Assembly (NCBI RefSeq): GCF_032163395.1
Contig: NZ_CP119968.1
Coordinates: 2,506,001-2,570,000 of the forward strand
Reading direction: 5' to 3'
From: Gloeocapsopsis dulcis
GTDB taxonomy: Bacteria; Cyanobacteriota; Cyanobacteriia; Cyanobacteriales; Chroococcidiopsidaceae
Length of the DNA stretch: 64,000 nt
The notes beneath the pieces were generated by a model. That model worked only from the letters and a program-made list of their open reading frames with translations. It was not told the origin of the DNA and made no database searches. A program made the translations under genes and the position numbers. Numbering within the stretch: the stretch's first letter is position 1; every line of letters begins with the position of its first letter. Below, piece after piece: positions 3,734-44,916 of the stretch.

Positions 3734-4405
3734 TTATGATGCTAAGCCTACTTGCATCAAACGTTGTTGCAGCCGCTTAGGATCTCCACGATCTACTAAA
3801 AAGCCTTTTTCTAGAAGAAAAGCACCATCACAATAATTCAGTTCATCTAAGCGATGCGTTACCCACAACGCAGTCAAGTTACGACTTTTGACTAAACGTT
3901 TTACTTGTGCAACTAAGTCTAATTGGCTGTCTGGATCGAGTAAAGCCGTAGGTTCATCTAACAGTAATACTTCGCTTTGTCGTGCGATCGCACCTGCGAT
4001 CGCGACTCGTTGCTTTTGTCCGCCACTTAAAGCATAAATTGGTCTTCGCTGTAACTCTAATAAATTCACTGCTGATAGTGCTTCTGCAACACGATGACGT
4101 ACTTGGCTAGGAGATAATTTTTCCTCTACCAATCCAAAAGCAACATCAGCACCAACAGTTGGCATGACTAGTTGGTGGTCAGGGTTTTGAAACACAAAAC
4201 CCACTGGCGGCATAACATTAATCTCACCAGATTTCGGAGTTAATAAACCTGCTAGCAACCTTAGTAGAGTTGATTTGCCACTACCATTAGTCCCTAGCAG
4301 CATCCAAAACTCACCCTGAGGGACTTCTAAGGTACAAGACTTCAAAACATCCTCACCATTAGCCCAACTAAAACACAAATTCCGCACTTGAAGGGCATCA
4401 GCCAT
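3734..4405 (-). CDS. ABC transporter ATP-binding protein, ECF/CbiO type
   Basis: The 223-residue ATPase has Walker A GTNGSGKST (residues about 38-46), a Q-loop VFQNPDHQLVMPTV, signature LSGGQKQRVAIAGA, Walker B VLLLDEPTALLD and a switch histidine in WVTHRLDEL. The phrase NPDHQLV after the Q-loop is typical of energy-coupling-factor ATPases for cobalt, nickel or vitamins. No T component or S component is nearby, so the substrate cannot be assigned. It is separated by 20 bases from the UPF0367 gene upstream on the same strand, so the two may be co-transcribed. Confidence 0.85.
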   Translation of the reverse strand: MADALQVRNLCFSWANGEDVLKSCTLEVPQGEFWMLLGTNGSGKSTLLRLLAGLLTPKSGEINVMPPVGFVFQNPDHQLVMPTVGADVAFGLVEEKLSPSQVRHRVAEALSAVNLLELQRRPIYALSGGQKQRVAIAGAIARQSEVLLLDEPTALLDPDSQLDLVAQVKRLVKSRNLTALWVTHRLDELNYCDGAFLLEKGFLVDRGDPKRLQQRLMQVGLAS

Positions 4406-4425
4406 ATGACCACCAACTGTTAAGT

Positions 4426-4695
4426 TTATTCTGCTGCTAATGCAAAAAAGCCAGGCGGTCTACCGCCTGCAGCTGCACCTGTCTTCTGAGACATTTGGAC
4501 ACTAGAAATATCACTAGCTCGTACAGCCACTTTTTTTTCTGTTTGGCTCTCGCAGGTCAATTCTACGATTTCAGTACTACCAGACTGCATTGCTTGCACA
4601 AGCTTCAGATAAACAGCTTCTGCGTCTTCTGCAGCCTTGCGTTGCACGGACAGTGGAAAAGGGGTGTTTTTGAGCGTCAAATCAATGTTAAACAT
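4426..4695 (-). CDS. UPF0367 family protein
   Basis: The 89-residue protein matches the cyanobacterial and plastid UPF0367 family, recognisable by TPFPLSVQRK near the N-terminus, ELTCE followed by EKK in the middle, and a closing AAAGGRPPGFFALA. The function of the family is unknown. The start at 4695 (MFNIDLTL) fits the family length; an upstream ATG at 4719 would add eight residues. It sits just upstream of the ECF-type ATPase. Confidence 0.85.
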   Translation of the reverse strand: MFNIDLTLKNTPFPLSVQRKAAEDAEAVYLKLVQAMQSGSTEIVELTCESQTEKKVAVRASDISSVQMSQKTGAAAGGRPPGFFALAAE

Positions 4696-5022
4696 TGTAA
4701 CTATTTGTGTACTTAGCAATTGTAAATCTCATTCTCATTTTAACTACCCAAAGAGTCACAATAGGCAATAGTTGCTTATGTCAATCGATAGATGCCAAAT
4801 AATCTTGTCTATGAATTGCCGCATCTAGTTTAAATAAAGATTAAATTCTGTCAAGGATAGTGTCACAAAACAGCGTTTAATAGTAAAACTATGATTAGAA
4901 TAAGTTAAAGAATCGTAAACTAAGTTGACAAATCAACTCATATCCTGATCTGGGTAGTTGTAAAATTACTAGATAAGGGCAGACGGTTCTAGCATGAAAT
5001 TATAAGATCTGGAGTTTTTGCT
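4696..5022. other. Intergenic region between UPF0367 and psbD
   Basis: These 327 bases separate divergent genes and should hold the promoters of both. A TTGACA hexamer lies at 4925-4930, but no -10 box at normal spacing follows it, so I do not call a promoter. GGAG at 5011-5014, eight bases before the ATG at 5023, is the psbD ribosome-binding site. No repeat or small gene was seen. Confidence 0.5.
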
Positions 5023-6078
5023 ATGACAATAGCAGTAGGACAACCAGCGAGTCGAGGATGGTTTGACGTCATCGACGACTGGTTAAAAAGAGATCGCTTC
5101 GTATTCATCGGGTGGTCAGGAATATTGCTATTTCCCTGTGCGTATATGGCACTAGGGGGATGGCTAACAGGAACAACATTCGTAACGTCGTGGTACACAC
5201 ACGGAATAGCATCGTCATACTTAGAAGGATGCAACTTTCTGACAGTGGCAGTATCAACACCAGCAAACAGCATGGGACACTCATTGCTGTTCTTGTGGGG
5301 GCCAGAAGCACAGTGGGACTTCACGAGGTGGTGTCAAATGGGAGGACTATGGACATTCGTAGCACTCCACGGAGCATTTGCGCTGATCGGATTTATGCTA
5401 CGGCAATTTGAGATAGCGCGGCTAGTGGGAGTAAGACCATACAACGCATTAGCATTCAGCGCACCAATAGCAGTGTTTGTCAGCGTATTCTTGATGTACC
5501 CACTCGGACAATCAGGATGGTTTTTCGCGCCCAGCTTTGGAGTAGCAGCAATCTTCCGGTTCTTGCTATTTTTCCAAGGATTCCACAACTGGACACTCAA
5601 CCCATTTCATATGATGGGGGTAGCGGGAGTGCTAGGAGGAGCATTGCTGTGTGCGATTCACGGTGCGACAGTAGAAAACACGCTGTTTGAAGACGGCGAC
5701 AAAGCGAACACTTTCCGTGCGTTCAACCCCACCCAAGCGGAAGAAACCTACAGCATGGTGACAGCGAACCGCTTTTGGTCGCAAATCTTCGGTATTGCCT
5801 TTTCCAACAAGCGCTGGTTGCACTTTTTCATGTTGTTTGTGCCTGTGACAGGGTTATGGATGAGTGCGGTAGGTGTTGTTGGTTTAGCAGTGAACTTGCG
5901 GGCATATGACTTCGTTTCTCAGGAGTTGCGTGCCGCTGAAGACCCTGAGTTCGAGACGTTCTACACCAAAAACATTCTGCTCAATGAAGGTATTCGCGCT
6001 TGGATGGCTCCCCAAGACCAGCCTCATGAGCATTTCCAATTCCCTGAAGAAGTATTGCCTCGTGGTAATGCCTTGTAA
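5023..6078 (+). CDS. psbD: Photosystem II reaction-centre protein D2
   Basis: The 351-residue protein is full length, one residue shorter than the usual 352 because of a deletion near residue 8. Key residues are kept: tyrosine D in LMYPLGQS (residue 159), His in GFHNW, the chlorophyll-ligand His in NPFHMMG, the iron-ligand His in CAIHGAT and RWLHFF, and the C-terminus RGNAL. Unusual positions include Trp at 98 where most D2 proteins have Gly, Gly at 165 for Ser, and Lys in DGDKANTF. psbC does not follow; a terminator does, so this is a free-standing psbD (psbDII-like) and not the psbDC operon copy. Codon use changes abruptly near 5700: the upstream part prefers A-ending codons, the rest does not. 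Confidence 0.97.
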
Positions 6079-6107
6079 TCAGGCGGATTGAAACAGTAGC
6101 TTAGAAG

Positions 6108-6134
6108 TCCCTACCTTTTCTGGTAGGGATTTTT
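6108..6134 (+). terminator. Rho-independent terminator of psbD
   Basis: TCCCTACC and GGTAGGGA form an 8-bp stem around a TTTTCT loop, followed by five T. It begins 29 bases after the psbD stop and shows that transcription ends without psbC. Confidence 0.9.
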
Positions 6135-39074: not shown

Positions 39075-39457
39075 TTTGTATCTATTAATACAATTTCTGC
39101 AAAAAATACCGTTAACAATATTTTGTGTGGTTAAGTATCTATTTTAAACAGTAGTTGCTCAATACTGAAACCCTCATCATATGTTGTAGAAGCAGATCAG
39201 TAATATAGTCTAGGGTACTGCATAAAATACCATTATATTTGTAAGGATTGTACTCACAGCAAGTGGTAGCTTTGTGATAGTTTTCAGTGAAATTGCGCAT
39301 GACAAAAAGTGAGAGTATATCTAAATTTGTGTTGTAGCTAAGTTATATAGACAAAGCTATAAAATTATGATTTACTACTTGCTAATTTACATTTCTGATT
39401 TAAGCATTGAGACAGCCATAACCTACCTCGCAAGATGTAGTAAGAACAATTAAATAG
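39075..39457. promoter_or_regulatory. Promoter region of the guanidine operon
   Basis: This 383-base AT-rich region lies between the divergent Npun_F0494-type gene and the riboswitch. The promoter of the riboswitch transcript must lie at its right end, upstream of about 39455, but I see no clear -35/-10 pair and no convincing GTA-N8-TAC (NtcA) site. No gene was found. Confidence 0.45.
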
Positions 39458-39582
39458 CTTCTAGGGTTCCGGTTTAAACTGTCAGAATTATTGGAAATTT
39501 AAATGCCTGGTCCAAGAGAAGCAGCCAGCCTGGAAGTCAAAACAACTGGGCGGTACACGGCGGGAAAAAAGCCCGGGAGAGA
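39458..39582 (+). promoter_or_regulatory. Guanidine-I (ykkC) riboswitch aptamer
   Basis: The leader has the conserved blocks of the guanidine-I aptamer in the right order: CTAGGGTTCCGG at 39461-39472, CTGGTCCAAGAGA near 39513, and ACACGGCGGG with AAAAGCCCGGGAGA up to 39580. These are, from memory of the family, the invariant parts of the ykkC class that bind guanidinium. It lies 96 bases upstream of a guanidine hydrolase gene, which agrees with the ligand. The start and end are approximate. Confidence 0.92.
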
Positions 39583-39628
39583 CACAAAACAGTACAACTG
39601 CTGTGATTGGCTGTCCGGGCTTTTGTAT
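39567..39628 (+). terminator. Riboswitch-controlled terminator
   Basis: AAAAGCCCGG at 39567-39576, part of the aptamer core, is perfectly complementary to CCGGGCTTTT at 39615-39624. Pairing them gives a terminator stem ending in a T-rich run. Because the left arm is needed in the folded aptamer, guanidinium binding should block the terminator and switch the operon on. The mechanism is inferred from base pairing. Confidence 0.82.
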
Positions 39629-39677
39629 TGCTGGAAGTAATTATCTGGTTGTAACTTTAAACTTGCAGGATAGAGAC

Positions 39678-40856
39678 ATGACACAAGGCGAACGCCCTTC
39701 CGAACAGAATTCTACTGAAGCACAAAGAGCTTTAGAAAAAGAAACTCAGTTATCTTTTACAGGCTGGCAACAAGAAGTTTCGCGTGGTTTAGAGTTTGGG
39801 TTAGAAGCTGCAGAAAGCATTCGCGATCGCACAATTTCCACATTCTCGCGTGGTGAATTACCTCACTATGCAGGTATCAATACTTTCCTGAAAGCACCTT
39901 ACATCGAAGATGTCCGTAAAGTAGGCGAATATGACGTGGCGATCGTTGGCGTGCCTCACGATTCAGGGACTACTTATCGCCCAGGAACGCGATTTGGTCC
40001 GCAGGGCATTCGTCGCATTTCCGCTTTGTATACTCCATACAACTTTGAACTCGGCGTCGATTTACGCGAACAAATAACTTTGTGTGATGTTGGCGATGTT
40101 TTCACAATTCCTGGTAACAACGAGAAATCTTTTGACCAAATTTCTAAAGGTATTGCTCACATTTTTGGTTCGGGTGCTTTTCCGATTATTTTAGGAGGAG
40201 ATCATTCAATTGGTTTTCCTACAGTTAGAGGAGTTTGCCGTCACCTAGGTGATAAAAAAGTAGGAATTATTCACTTTGATCGCCACGTAGACACCCAAGA
40301 GACAGATTTAGATGAAAGAATGCATACCTGTCCGTGGTTCCATGCAACAAATATTAAAAATGCTCCCGCAAAAAACTTAGTGCAATTGGGAATTGGTGGC
40401 TGGCAAGTTCCGCGTGCGGGTGTTAAGGTGTGCCGCGATCGCGCTACCAATATTCTCACCGTTACTGATATTACCGAAATGGGCTTAGATGCAGCAGTGG
40501 AATTTGCCCTAGAACGAGCGTTAGATGGTACTGACTGCGTTTACATTAGCTTTGATATTGACTGTATTGATGCTGGGTTTGTCCCTGGAACAGGTTGGCC
40601 TGAACCTGGTGGTTTATTACCAAGAGAAGCACTTTATCTCCTCGGTAAAATTGTCCAAAAAGCCCCAGTGTGCGGTTTAGAAGTCGTTGAAGTTTCTCCA
40701 CCTTACGATGTCAGCGACATGACTGCATTAATGGCAACTCGCGTAATTTGCGATACAATGGCGCATTTAGTCATCTCAGGTCAATTACCTCGCAAAGAGA
40801 AACCAGCTTACATCCATCCTGAAGCAACACCAGAAGTCATCAGTGAGTGGCAGTAG
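39678..40856 (+). CDS. gdmH: Nickel-dependent guanidine hydrolase (agmatinase/ureohydrolase family)
   Basis: The 392-residue protein is an arginase-fold enzyme with metal ligands in ILGGDHSIGFP, HFDRHVDTQETD and SFDIDCIDAGF. It differs from agmatinases by FDRHVDTQETDLDERMHTCP in place of the FDAHxD pattern and by an N-terminal extension of about 60 residues. These features match Synechocystis Sll1077/GdmH as I remember it, which splits guanidine into urea and ammonium with two nickel ions. The riboswitch upstream and the nickel chaperones downstream strongly support this over agmatinase. Start 39678 has AGGATAGAG upstream; the open frame extends to 39603 through the terminator, where no start fits. 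Confidence 0.92.
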   Translation: MTQGERPSEQNSTEAQRALEKETQLSFTGWQQEVSRGLEFGLEAAESIRDRTISTFSRGELPHYAGINTFLKAPYIEDVRKVGEYDVAIVGVPHDSGTTYRPGTRFGPQGIRRISALYTPYNFELGVDLREQITLCDVGDVFTIPGNNEKSFDQISKGIAHIFGSGAFPIILGGDHSIGFPTVRGVCRHLGDKKVGIIHFDRHVDTQETDLDERMHTCPWFHATNIKNAPAKNLVQLGIGGWQVPRAGVKVCRDRATNILTVTDITEMGLDAAVEFALERALDGTDCVYISFDIDCIDAGFVPGTGWPEPGGLLPREALYLLGKIVQKAPVCGLEVVEVSPPYDVSDMTALMATRVICDTMAHLVISGQLPRKEKPAYIHPEATPEVISEWQ

Positions 40857-40859
40857 AAG

Positions 40860-41240
40860 ATGCATGAAACTGATATGACCAAAGCGTTGCTTTTAACGCT
40901 GAAAGATTGGTGGGAAGCACACTCAGAGCCAAAAATTTCCTGTATTCATCTCATTGTCGGCAAATTCACTTGCGTTGAGCCTGTTAGTTTGCAGTTTGCT
41001 TTTGAGGTACAAACTCAAAATACATTTTTGGCAGAAGCCAAATTAAGCATTAAAGAAACACCTTTAATAGCCTTTTGTCACCATTGCCAACAAGAATATC
41101 ATCCTGAAATTGGCATTCAATATGCTTGTCCTCAATGTCATTCTCCCATGGAAGACATTCGTTCGGGGCGCGAACTCAAAATCGACCGTGTTGAATACTC
41201 AACTAACACCATAGAGGATACTTATGCACCAAACTTTTGA
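40860..41240 (+). CDS. ghaA: HypA-like nickel chaperone of the guanidine hydrolase (GhaA)
   Basis: The 126-residue protein starts Met-His-Glu, the nickel-binding N-terminus of HypA, and has a zinc site with two CxxC pairs ([19 protein letters not shown]). It begins three bases after the gdmH stop. Known GdmH enzymes need HypA/HypB-like helper proteins named GhaA and GhaB for nickel insertion. There are no hydrogenase genes in the window, so a role in hydrogenase maturation is unlikely for this copy. Confidence 0.88.
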
Positions 41241-41934
41241 TGCTGCATTAGGCATTAACCTACTCCATGCTAATCAGCAAGGCGCAGAACACAATCGCGC
41301 TCATTTCGATCAGTGGGGAATTATTTGCCTAAATGTTATGAGTAGCCCTGGCGCGGGGAAAACTGTTTTATTAGAGAGAACTTTAGCAGCTTTGAGCAAT
41401 GAATTTAAAATTGCTGTCATTGAAGGAGACATGACTACCGAATTAGATGCGGATCGCTTGCGTCAATACAATGTTCCTGTAATTGCGATTAATACGGGAC
41501 GTTCTTGTCATCTCGATTCCAAAATGGTCGCAGGCGGAATTCACCGCCTTGAACACGAATACAATCCACCAGATTTTGATTTATTACTGGTGGAGAACGT
41601 AGGCAACTTAGTTTGTCCAGCTGAATTTGAAGTAGGAGAACATGCCAAAGTCGCGTTATTGAGCATTACCGAGGGAGAAGATAAACCATTAAAGTATCCT
41701 GTCATGTTTCAGGAGGCAGATTGTTTACTGATTACAAAAACTGACTTAGCTCCTTATTTGGAAACCAACATGAGTCAAATTGAGGCAAATGTCCGTCAAA
41801 TGAACCCTCACGTCAAAATTATTCCAGTTTCTGCTAAAACTAACGATGGTTTAGAAGAATGGTTTGATTGGATACGAAATATTGTACGACCAAATACCAC
41901 AAAATCAGTGATGAACTTAGCTACCCAAAGATAA
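41224..41934 (+). CDS. ghaB: HypB-like GTPase of the guanidine hydrolase (GhaB)
   Basis: The 236-residue protein has the SIMIBI GTPase motifs: P-loop SSPGAGKT near residue 40, [13 protein letters not shown], the metal-site region [29 protein letters not shown] and the guanine-specificity motif TKTDLAPYL. The N-terminal poly-His tail of many HypB proteins is absent. It overlaps the ghaA end by 17 bases. It should deliver nickel to the hydrolase together with GhaA. Confidence 0.9.
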
Positions 41935-42023
41935 CTAAAACATAAATAGATTGCTAGTAACTTCAATGATTACTAGCATCTGTACTTTTAATTTACTTCT
42001 TACAAATTCTATAGATAAAAACA

Positions 42024-43055
42024 ATGAAAGCACATAAAATATTGTCGCTTATAAGCGTATTTTTAGTAAGTTTAATCGTTACTGTTAGTTGTACCCCATC
42101 ACAACAAGCCTCTAATACTACTAATACTACCGCAACAGGTGTACCAGTTCAAATGGGTTATAGCGGTTGGCCTGGGTGGTTTCCTTGGGCAGTTGCCAAT
42201 GAACAAAATTTATTTGCTGAAAATAACGTCCAAGTAAATCTGAGATGGTTCGATGGTTACTTGGATTCTATGAATGCTATGAATGCAGGTCAGTTAGATG
42301 CTAACTGCCAAACTTTAGACCAAACAATTAGTTCAGTATCAAATGGCTCCGATCAAGTTGTTGTTTTAGTTAACGATAACTCTACTGGTAACGACAAAGT
42401 TGTTGTTCGTGAAGGCATTAATAATATTACTGACTTGAGAGGTAAAAAAGTTGCCGCAGAAGAAGGAACGGTAGATCATTACCTATTACTTTTAGGAATG
42501 AAAGAAGCTGGCATGACCCAAGCAGATATTGATTTTCTACCTTTAGAAACCGGTGCAGCAGCAGCAGCCTTTGCTGCAGGAAGAGTTGATGCAGCAGCAG
42601 TTTATGCACCGTTTACAACTAAAGCCTTAGAACGCCCTGGTAGCAAAGAGTTATTCAGTTCCAAAGACTTTCCTGGGGCAATTCCAGACCATTTAGTTGT
42701 CAGCCGTAGAATGATCAATGAGCGTCCGCAAGATGTACAAGCACTTGTAAATACATGGTTTGATACTTTAGATTTCGTGCAAGCAAACCAAGAAAAATCT
42801 CTTGAAATTATGGCTCAGAGAGCTGGCGTTTCAGTTGAAAACTACAAAACTTATGATGCAGGTACGACAATCTTCACTGCACAACAAAATTTACAAGCTT
42901 TTCAACCAGGAAATGACATGAAGTCTTTACAATATACAGCAAAAGAAATTAATAATTTTCTTTTGGAAGCTGACTTAATCAAGCGTACTCCAGACTTATC
43001 ACGTATGTTTGACGATCGCTTTGTGAAAGCTTATGCTGCTTCTCACAAAGGTTAG
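42024..43055 (+). CDS. ABC transporter substrate-binding lipoprotein, probable guanidine importer
   Basis: The 343-residue protein has a lipoprotein signal with lipobox VTVSC near residue 23. It is followed by a NitT/TauT (SsuA-like) binding fold: MGYSGWPGWFPWAVANEQNL, RWFDGYLDSMNAMNAGQLDA and AAFAAGRVDAAAVYAPFTT. By position it matches Synechocystis Sll1080. The Trp-rich YSGWPGW segment could line the ligand site. Guanidine as ligand is inferred from operon membership. Confidence 0.85.
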   Translation: MKAHKILSLISVFLVSLIVTVSCTPSQQASNTTNTTATGVPVQMGYSGWPGWFPWAVANEQNLFAENNVQVNLRWFDGYLDSMNAMNAGQLDANCQTLDQTISSVSNGSDQVVVLVNDNSTGNDKVVVREGINNITDLRGKKVAAEEGTVDHYLLLLGMKEAGMTQADIDFLPLETGAAAAAFAAGRVDAAAVYAPFTTKALERPGSKELFSSKDFPGAIPDHLVVSRRMINERPQDVQALVNTWFDTLDFVQANQEKSLEIMAQRAGVSVENYKTYDAGTTIFTAQQNLQAFQPGNDMKSLQYTAKEINNFLLEADLIKRTPDLSRMFDDRFVKAYAASHKG

Positions 43056-43151
43056 TCATATCTTTAGAAAGTTTTGAGTTTTGAATGCGCGAGTTTTGCT
43101 CAGAAAACTCTTAAACTTTCTAAACTCAACACTCAACACTCAACACTTTTT

Positions 43152-43970
43152 ATGAATTCTCCCCCTCCACATAAAATGTTGCCACCAACTGTTTTTTGGC
43201 GCATTGATGAAGACATTCCTCAGTCCTTAAATTGGACATTAATGTTTTTATCGATTGCAATACCTTTTGGATTATGGTGGATTATTTCAAATTCTGGGGT
43301 AGTAGATTCTTTATTTTTACCTACTCCTTTTGTTGTTGGCGAAGCATTTTTACGGTTATGGCAAAATGGGACTTTACCTGAAGACATAGGTGCTAGCATT
43401 TTTCGAGTTCTGGGTGGTTTTTTGCTCGCAGCTATAGTTTCAATTCCATTAGGTATTTTGATGGGTACATTTAATAGTATTCGTGCCTTAATGGAACCTG
43501 TCATTGGTATTGTTCGCTATATGCCAGCACCTGCATTTATTCCTTTACTGATTCTCTATTTTGGATTAGGCGAATTACCTAAAATTCTCTTAATTTTTAT
43601 TGGAACCTTATTTTTTAATACCTTAATGGTAATGGATGCAGTAAAGTTCGTTCCTAAAGAATTAGTAGAGATAACATATACACTGGGAGGATTGCGAAAA
43701 CAAGTTTTACTTCAAGTCATTACTCCCTATGTTTTACCAAGTATTATTGATTCCTGCCGCGTGAACATGGCAGCTTCATGGAATTTGGTGATTGTGGCAG
43801 AATTGATCGCTGCTACCACAGGTTTAGGACGTAGAATTAGTATAGCTCAAAGGTATTTAAGAACTGATGAAATTTTTGCTGGAATAATTGTTATTGGTAT
43901 TATTGGTCTAACTATTGATTTATTTTTTCGTTTACTTTTAAGAGTTTCTGGTCGTTGGGTAAGTAAATAG
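43152..43970 (+). CDS. ABC transporter permease, probable guanidine importer
   Basis: The 272-residue protein is a NitT/TauT-type permease with about six membrane segments and the EAA-type loop ELVEITYTLGGLRKQVLLQV. GASIFRVLGGFLLAAIVSIP precedes it. The start at 43152 was preferred to an upstream one at 43074, because the extra 26 codons translate the simple repeat CTCAACACTCAACACTCAAC, which is intergenic elsewhere in this window. It sits between the binding protein and the ATPase. Confidence 0.88.
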   Translation: MNSPPPHKMLPPTVFWRIDEDIPQSLNWTLMFLSIAIPFGLWWIISNSGVVDSLFLPTPFVVGEAFLRLWQNGTLPEDIGASIFRVLGGFLLAAIVSIPLGILMGTFNSIRALMEPVIGIVRYMPAPAFIPLLILYFGLGELPKILLIFIGTLFFNTLMVMDAVKFVPKELVEITYTLGGLRKQVLLQVITPYVLPSIIDSCRVNMAASWNLVIVAELIAATTGLGRRISIAQRYLRTDEIFAGIIVIGIIGLTIDLFFRLLLRVSGRWVSK

Positions 43971-43996
43971 TTTATTAGTAAGATAAAGGGTAGTTT

Positions 43997-44773
43997 ATGA
44001 ATTTATCAGTTCATAGCTTGTACAAACATTTTAAGACTAAACAAGGAACATTAGTCGCGCTGCAAAATATTAATTTAAAAATTGAGCAAGGTGAGTTTGT
44101 TTGTGCTGTTGGGGCTTCGGGTTCAGGGAAATCAACTTTACTCCGGTTAATTGCAGGGTTAGATACTCCGACGTCGGGTGAAATTACAGTTAACGGGGTT
44201 TCTGTGACAGGACCAGGAGCTGATCGAGGAATGGTATTTCAAAAGTATACGCTTTATCCGTGGATGAGCGTAGCGCAAAACGTCGGCTTTGGATTAAAGT
44301 TGCAAGGTGTTCCTACTACTAAACGACGCGAACAAATTGCGTACTATTTGGATATTGTAGGATTAACTCAATTTGCCCATGCTCTACCCAAGGAACTGTC
44401 TGGAGGAATGCAGCAGCGTGTTGCGATCGCACGGGCTTTAGCATCGCAACCAAGAATATTACTCATGGATGAACCGTTTGGTGCTTTGGATGCTCAAACA
44501 AAAGAGAAAATGCAACAATTCCTATTAGAGTTATGGCAGCGTACGGGAACAACAATTTTAATGATTACTCATGATGTGGAAGAAGCACTTTTTCTTTCGC
44601 AGCGCCTCTATGTCATGTCTTCTCGCCCTGGCACAATTAAAACTGAAGTGAACATGGATTTACCAGGCGATCGCACTTATCACTCGAAAAAGCATTCCAT
44701 TTTTCAGGATCGCAAAGAAATGGTGCTTGATTTACTTCGCAATGAGGGAATACCAGAAGTCGTACCTTGCTAA
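43997..44773 (+). CDS. ABC transporter ATP-binding protein, probable guanidine importer
   Basis: The 258-residue ATPase has Walker [10 protein letters not shown], the Q-loop [13 protein letters not shown], signature [14 protein letters not shown], Walker [13 protein letters not shown] and the switch His in MITHDVEEA. It is the NrtD/SsuB/TauB type, consistent with the permease. It ends the six-gene unit and is followed after 25 bases by a terminator. Confidence 0.9.
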
Positions 44774-44798
44774 TTATACAATTTGATAATTTATCACA

Positions 44799-44829
44799 CC
44801 TCATTTCCTAGTAGAAATGAGGAATTTTT
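44799..44829 (+). terminator. Rho-independent terminator of the guanidine operon
   Basis: CCTCATTTC at 44799-44807 pairs with GAAATGAGG at 44814-44822, with loop CTAGTA, followed by AATTTTT. It marks the end of the operon. Confidence 0.88.
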
Positions 44830-44916
44830 ATTATTCCTATGGCATTCAGTTAAAAGTATAAGTTTTTCTGTAGGTAGTGAAGATGTGTCAGTTACTATGA
44901 GCATTTCCAATTCGTT

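Follow-up and report, generated by a model that had tools for sequence, protein, structure and literature searches.

A predicted guanidine assimilation operon of Gloeocapsopsis dulcis and the importers that accompany it in related cyanobacteria

The Synechocystis protein Sll1077 is reported to degrade guanidine, and operons joining its gene to hypA, hypB and sll1080-1082 have been noted (PMC8390497); the names GdmH, GhaA and GhaB, with Sll1080-1082 as the importer, are used in PMC10094980. A single guanidine-I-controlled operon combining a guanidinase, nickel-delivery proteins and an ATP-binding cassette (ABC) importer is described in PMC12186494, and for marine Synechococcus and Prochlorococcus the same kind of cluster is reported, with hypA/hypB and a TauABC-like importer, and with the riboswitch in Synechococcus (PMC10119275). 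This type of operon is known from Synechocystis and from marine picocyanobacteria, and is not new. Here we analyze a 64,000-nucleotide stretch of the Gloeocapsopsis dulcis genome (contig NZ_CP119968.1, positions 2,506,001 to 2,570,000; hereafter the window), in which six genes, gdmH-ghaA-ghaB followed by those for a substrate-binding protein (SBP), a permease and an ATPase, lie on the plus strand between a riboswitch leader and a final terminator. We consider it highly probable that these genes form a cyanobacterial guanidine assimilation operon, most likely working as in Synechocystis. An initial annotation, made from the DNA letters alone, had proposed one unit for guanidine sensing, uptake and breakdown with its own nickel loading, and the comparisons below support that proposal at the level of sequence.

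The guanidine hydrolase, its riboswitch and the operon

The operon consists of the following features, all on the plus strand, with the basis for each in brackets.

39450..39581, +, guanidine-I riboswitch aptamer, RF00442 (cmscan, whole window)
39567..39624, +, expression platform, intrinsic terminator (fold)
39678..40856, +, gdmH, predicted Ni-dependent guanidine hydrolase of arginase fold, 392 aa (phmmer, PF00491, diagnostic residues)
40860..41240, +, ghaA, HypA-like nickel chaperone (PF01155 104.8 bits, motifs)
41224..41934, +, ghaB, HypB-like GTPase (TIGR00073 309.9 bits, PF02492, motifs)
41946..41983, +, hairpin between ghaB and the SBP gene (fold of 41936-42000)
42024..43055, +, lipoprotein substrate-binding protein type 1 (SBP1), probable guanidinium binder (TIGR01728 SsuA family, Cys23)
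43152..43970, +, ABC permease of a type 1 importer (PF00528, tree)
43997..44773, +, ABC ATPase of a type 1 importer (PF00005, tree)
44799..44822, +, intrinsic terminator at the operon end (stem plus T tail, fold)

As judged from its sequence, the enzyme is GdmH and not an agmatinase, because it matches Sll1077 (7ESR/7OI1) with a phmmer E value of 7.1e-233, residues 12-392 aligning to 12-392, because it carries the guanidinase residues, and because a wide gap in identity sets its relatives apart. Among the matches listed, full-length relatives at 82-100% identity occur in 44 of 292 genomes of the phylum and fragments at 82-85% in two more, and the other matches listed reach at most 34%. The Nitrospira guanidinase (9FEK; PMC11410670) follows with an E value of 3.4e-176, and the remaining ureohydrolases listed reach 7.5e-48 or worse. 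For the N. inopinata guanidinase, Thr105, His222, Trp313 and Glu344 have been proposed as possibly important for guanidine (PMC11410670); alignment at a constant offset places T99, H216, W307 and E338 at these positions, and each of the four is present in 89/89 rows of a GdmH set in which two genomes were entered twice (L075/L071 and L138/L074). The motif FDRHVDTQETD, which the initial annotation had noted in an arginase-fold enzyme, occupies residues 200-210 of a protein that matches PF00491. All six residues that we take to be the metal ligands of the arginase fold (H176, D201, H203, D205, D293 and D295) are present. In five other ureohydrolases from the phylum, a sixth (row L167) not being counted, the metal ligands are retained, with DAH where the window enzyme has DRH and Thr where it has Trp. 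The initial annotation had called for alignment with GdmH and agmatinases at the substrate loop; comparison at these diagnostic residues sides with GdmH.

The proposed aptamer is likewise borne out, an Rfam search of the whole window matching RF00442 at 73.6 bits (gathering threshold 63, E 3.4e-11). The leader (39080-39680) has a mean column identity of 96% in an alignment with two congeneric genomes, and the fold of 39560-39630 (-26.6 kcal/mol, z -3.67) was equalled by none of 200 shuffles. Ligand binding should open the terminator, because its 5' arm (39567-39576) overlaps, by predicted pair positions, the 3' strand of the last helix of the aptamer. From this overlap and knowledge of the riboswitch class, we predict that the leader is an ON switch, in which guanidine would close the aptamer and transcription would pass. 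A sigma-70 scan returned 11 sites against 16.2 in shuffles, and since such sites are no commoner than in shuffles no promoter is claimed. An NtcA-like site (GTAN8TAC) at 39078 was rejected as evidence, the window holding 14 matches where 12.3 are expected.

Domain searches of the open reading frames (ORFs) in the window returned PF00491 Arginase, PF01155 HypA, PF02492 CobW/HypB, an NMT1-type binding protein, a BPD_transp_1 permease and an ABC ATPase, so that the HypA- and HypB-like proteins (PF01155; PF02492 and TIGR00073) and the NitT/TauT-type importer (an SsuA/TauA-type SBP with permease and ATPase) that had been claimed were all found. As had also been anticipated, NCBIfam labels the products agmatinase, HypA, HypB and aliphatic sulfonate binding protein. 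The ghaA and ghaB genes overlap by 17 bases. The arrangement on one strand stood, but the gaps described as short include 89 bases between ghaB and the SBP gene and 96 between the SBP and permease genes, which are not very short. The start of gdmH is most likely ATG 39678, which gives 392 aa as in the 7esr chain; a longer mechanical ORF begins at GTG 39603, inside the leader terminator. For the permease, ATG 43152 is the most likely start, its mechanical ORF opening at TTG 43074. A terminator had been claimed as well, and the operon does end in a hairpin with a T tail (44799-44822): a 9-pair stem, then AATTTTTATT, with z -3.87 for the fold of 44776-44840. A scan of the window found terminator-like sites no more often (5) than in shuffles (5.2) and is by itself no evidence. 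The hairpin at 41946-41983 lies in the gap between ghaB and the SBP gene; its fold (41936-42000) has z -5.25, equalled by 0/200 shuffles, and it could serve message trimming or attenuation.

We propose that guanidinium binds the aptamer and keeps its last helix closed, which would prevent the leader terminator from forming and let the operon be transcribed. The lipoprotein SBP1 would capture guanidinium, and the permease and ATPase would import it. GhaA and GhaB would load nickel into GdmH, which would convert guanidine to urea and ammonium, and the genome's own urease would complete the breakdown.

Nickel chaperones, importer substrate and competing explanations

GhaA begins with MHE and contains CHHC/CPQC, and GhaB contains SPGAGKT, SCH and NLVC; the metal motifs among these presumably have their usual meaning. 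The window genome has one PF01155 HypA match, which is ghaA, and one urease match, and a profile search of it found no NiFe hydrogenase large subunit (PF00374). Across 19 genomes of the family, HypA (PF01155) occurs in 13, the same 13 that have GdmH (a count that includes two assemblies, G004 and G018, with the gene in pieces). Urease alpha is present in 17/19, including four genomes without a HypA match (G011, G012, G013 and G016). None of the six family genomes without GdmH has a HypA match and four of them have urease. PF00374 is found in 3/19, each of the three having a second HypA nearby. This phylogenetic profile fits chaperones dedicated to GdmH. Among the best 80 of 447 scanned loci, HypA lies near gdmH in 75/80, and all six genes are on one strand in 49/80, several of the other 31 being truncated by contig ends. 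At one locus (L129) the importer is divergent. Two genomes of the window's genus, G015 (L160 879-12416) and G014 (L161), have a locus with HypA, HypB and HypF together with hoxE-like and hoxF-like genes, the names being our own reading.

In SBP1, Cys23 belongs to the set of positions whose conservation reaches 97% or more across 69 SBP rows. Two residues of a putative ligand loop, E146/E147, are nearly invariant, and their counterparts in SsuA and the nitrate protein are QK; if we have placed the loop correctly, the pair suits a cationic ligand.

Several observations weigh against parts of this account. The NCBIfam agmatinase model TIGR01230 scores the enzyme at 176.5 bits, slightly above its cut-off of 174.3, which speaks for an agmatinase in an operon for polyamine or arginine breakdown. 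The distance in E value between Sll1077 and the best other ureohydrolase, the guanidinase Trp where the five usable ureohydrolases have Thr, and the guanidine-I aptamer upstream of the gene argue against that explanation, which we regard as extremely improbable. GhaA and GhaB pass the NCBIfam cut-offs for HypA (TIGR00100) and HypB (TIGR00073), as ordinary hydrogenase or urease maturation genes merely adjoining gdmH would. The co-occurrence of HypA and GdmH involves few lineages and few independent losses, and two of the six HypA-less genomes are incomplete (65% and 84%). The hox/hyp-like locus of G014 and G015 holds a second HypA and has no PF00374 match, and in G014 it contains short frames resembling pieces of hydrogenase subunits (by our own reading of the frames), so PF00374 can miss decayed copies. 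Against an ordinary maturation role stand the window genome, where ghaA is the only HypA match and PF00374 has none, the four urease-keeping genomes without a HypA match, and the presence of a second HypA close to the NiFe large subunit in each of the three genomes where that subunit was found; we judge such a role very unlikely.

The importer's substrate is less firmly placed. Some loci have gdmH, ghaA and ghaB with no such ABC importer within the stretch examined. NCBIfam puts SBP1 in the aliphatic sulfonate family (TIGR01728 SsuA), and none of the five solved SBP1 relatives listed is named as a guanidine binder. The similarity of the named solved relatives to SBP1 is low, and their ligands are sulfonates, nitrate or taurine; going by these relatives, the importer might carry taurine, a sulfonate, nitrate, urea or a substituted guanidine, with guanidine acting on it only through co-regulation. 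Yet even as a stand-alone unit it keeps a guanidine-I riboswitch in front of it, both where GdmH is present and where carboxylase-route genes are (see below), and E146/E147 replace the QK of SsuA and the nitrate protein in the putative loop. We find a different substrate unlikely, and specificity for guanidine, which we base on gene position and comparison, is probable.

Possible importer exchange and operon decay in the family

A second guanidine-I aptamer in the window genome (C1:5284480-5284627, 75.9 bits) is followed by a terminator-like fold (L003 5600-5680; -34.4 kcal/mol, z -5.09) and then by an importer that stands alone, its three proteins sharing 60, 65 and 66% identity with their counterparts in the window. 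This second locus spans L003 5481-8671, or C1:5284480-5287670 of the genome. On the opposite strand beside it are matches to the FAD-dependent urate hydroxylase HpxO, a xanthine permease and hydroxyisourate hydrolase, urate-gene neighbors that are shared by the stand-alone importers of G011, G012, G013 and G015. A SelD-fusion gene lies upstream of the stand-alone importer in these other genomes. In G014 the contig carrying the importer is 7,344 bases long, and neither the urate-gene neighbors nor the SelD-fusion gene were found on it.

A tree built from 63 joined rows of permease and ATPase places the window importer with those of G014, G015, G001 and G016 (support 99/97), and the stand-alone importers of its genus with those of a further genus of the family, here called g5 (100/99). 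This stand-alone group falls within a clade of 21 rows (100/100), to which importers located inside the operons of G002 and G007-G010 also belong. The GdmH proteins of G001 and G002 are sisters (100/94) and both genomes have the operon beside the Npun_F0494 gene, but their importer types differ. In our interpretation the importer was swapped while the operon stayed in place; an ancestor carrying both importers, followed by loss of different copies, would fit as well.

The window operon lies next to the Npun_F0494 gene, at a position conserved in the family: the riboswitch adjoins that gene in 7/11 family genomes searched, and in G009 the two are apart. G016 keeps the riboswitch and importer beside Npun_F0494 and has a further SBP of the same kind elsewhere, and neither a GdmH nor a HypA match was found in this genome. 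A sub-threshold aptamer of 41 bits was also seen in G016 (L026). In the three g5 genomes (G011, G012 and G013), SBP1, 86-87% identical to that of the window, is the only intact gene at the site flanked by Npun_F0494 and RNase Z. Before it lie worn remains of the leader, of gdmH (within 39713-39824, in window coordinates) and of hypB (within 41334-41389 and 41795-41905). At E 0.05 or better these amount to 10 matches in the three genomes, three of them to the leader, against 4 across 20 shuffled sets. Remains of the type 1 permease and ATPase were not found, either by a translated search of the three g5 loci or by a DNA search downstream in two of the three. The decayed loci are at L156 3385-5370, L158 4099-6001 and, on the reverse complement, L157 at about 4180-6130. 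The ratio of nonsynonymous to synonymous substitution rates (dN/dS) for the orphan SBP1 is 0.07-0.10 among the three g5 species, similar to the 0.08-0.11 of in-operon copies; the orphan is intact and under purifying selection.

The g5 genomes also hold a stand-alone type 2 importer behind its own riboswitch. Behind their other guanidine-I aptamer are two urea-amidolyase-associated protein genes (NCBIfam, in G013), 94-98% identical in G012 and G011, and downstream of these comes a urea carboxylase-like gene in G013 and G012, the stretch from G011 being too short to tell. We take this set to be the guanidine carboxylase route. That assignment agrees with the account of the route in PMC12186494.

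Taken together, the sequences suggest a history in which sensing, breakdown and import behave as separate parts: the enzymes have disappeared from genomes with carboxylase genes, two importer types occupy the same position in the operon, one importer has been doubled and one SBP is kept alone. We tentatively suggest that the guanidine importers of the family are exchangeable parts, that SBP1 and the SBP2 of the second locus may share one permease/ATPase core, and that the orphan SBP1 of g5, at whose locus no riboswitch, enzyme, chaperones or neighboring permease was detected, may be recruited to the type 2 importer feeding the carboxylase route; we hold this to be nearly as likely true as false. 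A different history, in which the window's genus regained the operon by horizontal transfer and the second importer is a relic of an older operon, draws on a tree of GdmH rows only, in which the GdmH of the genus does not cluster with that of its own family. The deep forks of that tree are weak, and the riboswitch sits beside Npun_F0494 in the 7/11 genomes, with a decayed operon at the same site in three more. We set horizontal regain aside as quite improbable in view of this conserved site and of the decayed copy there in g5.

Two further loci bear on the variety of these operons. At L139 (7104-9708), a sodium:solute symporter gene follows gdmH-ghaA-ghaB on the same strand in place of the ABC importer, and its product is a possible alternative guanidine carrier. 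G003 has a second, broken guanidine operon (L063 5514-7641) with a sub-threshold aptamer of 59.4 bits, a gdmH fragment, a permease in two pieces and a near full-length ATPase.

Comparison with known systems

These results confirm a published guanidine system in another cyanobacterial genus, where standard models still label its parts agmatinase, hydrogenase maturation and sulfonate transport. Comparison within the family offers a natural test of whether the chaperones belong to GdmH, genomes without the enzyme having HypA in 0/6 cases and urease in 4/6. We found no report of the importer's history (exchange, doubling and a lone SBP1) in the open-licence papers searched; for the orphan SBP1, both the ligand and the partner permease are directly testable.

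The nearest described system is sll1077-sll1082 of Synechocystis sp. PCC 6803, reported, like the window, to have gdmH-ghaA-ghaB and an ABC importer with a guanidine-I riboswitch upstream (PMC8390497, PMC10094980). The organism differs, and the G. dulcis genome also contains a further riboswitch in front of an importer that stands alone. The guanidinase operon of Nitrospira inopinata is described as having a guanidine riboswitch, and its enzyme is related (9FEK, E 3.4e-176); its predicted importer is an APC permease (PMC12186494), whereas the window has an ABC importer and includes ghaA and ghaB in the operon. The guanidine carboxylase route, consisting of a urea carboxylase-like enzyme and carboxyguanidine deiminase, also has a guanidine-I riboswitch upstream and relies on ATP-dependent carboxylation, not hydrolysis; such genes are found in g5, and the route lies outside the window. 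The metformin hydrolase MefH is reported to be likewise a Ni-dependent ureohydrolase loaded by HypA/HypB (PMC11399263), but it is heteromeric, acts on a different substrate and is far less similar to the window enzyme (E 5.2e-41).

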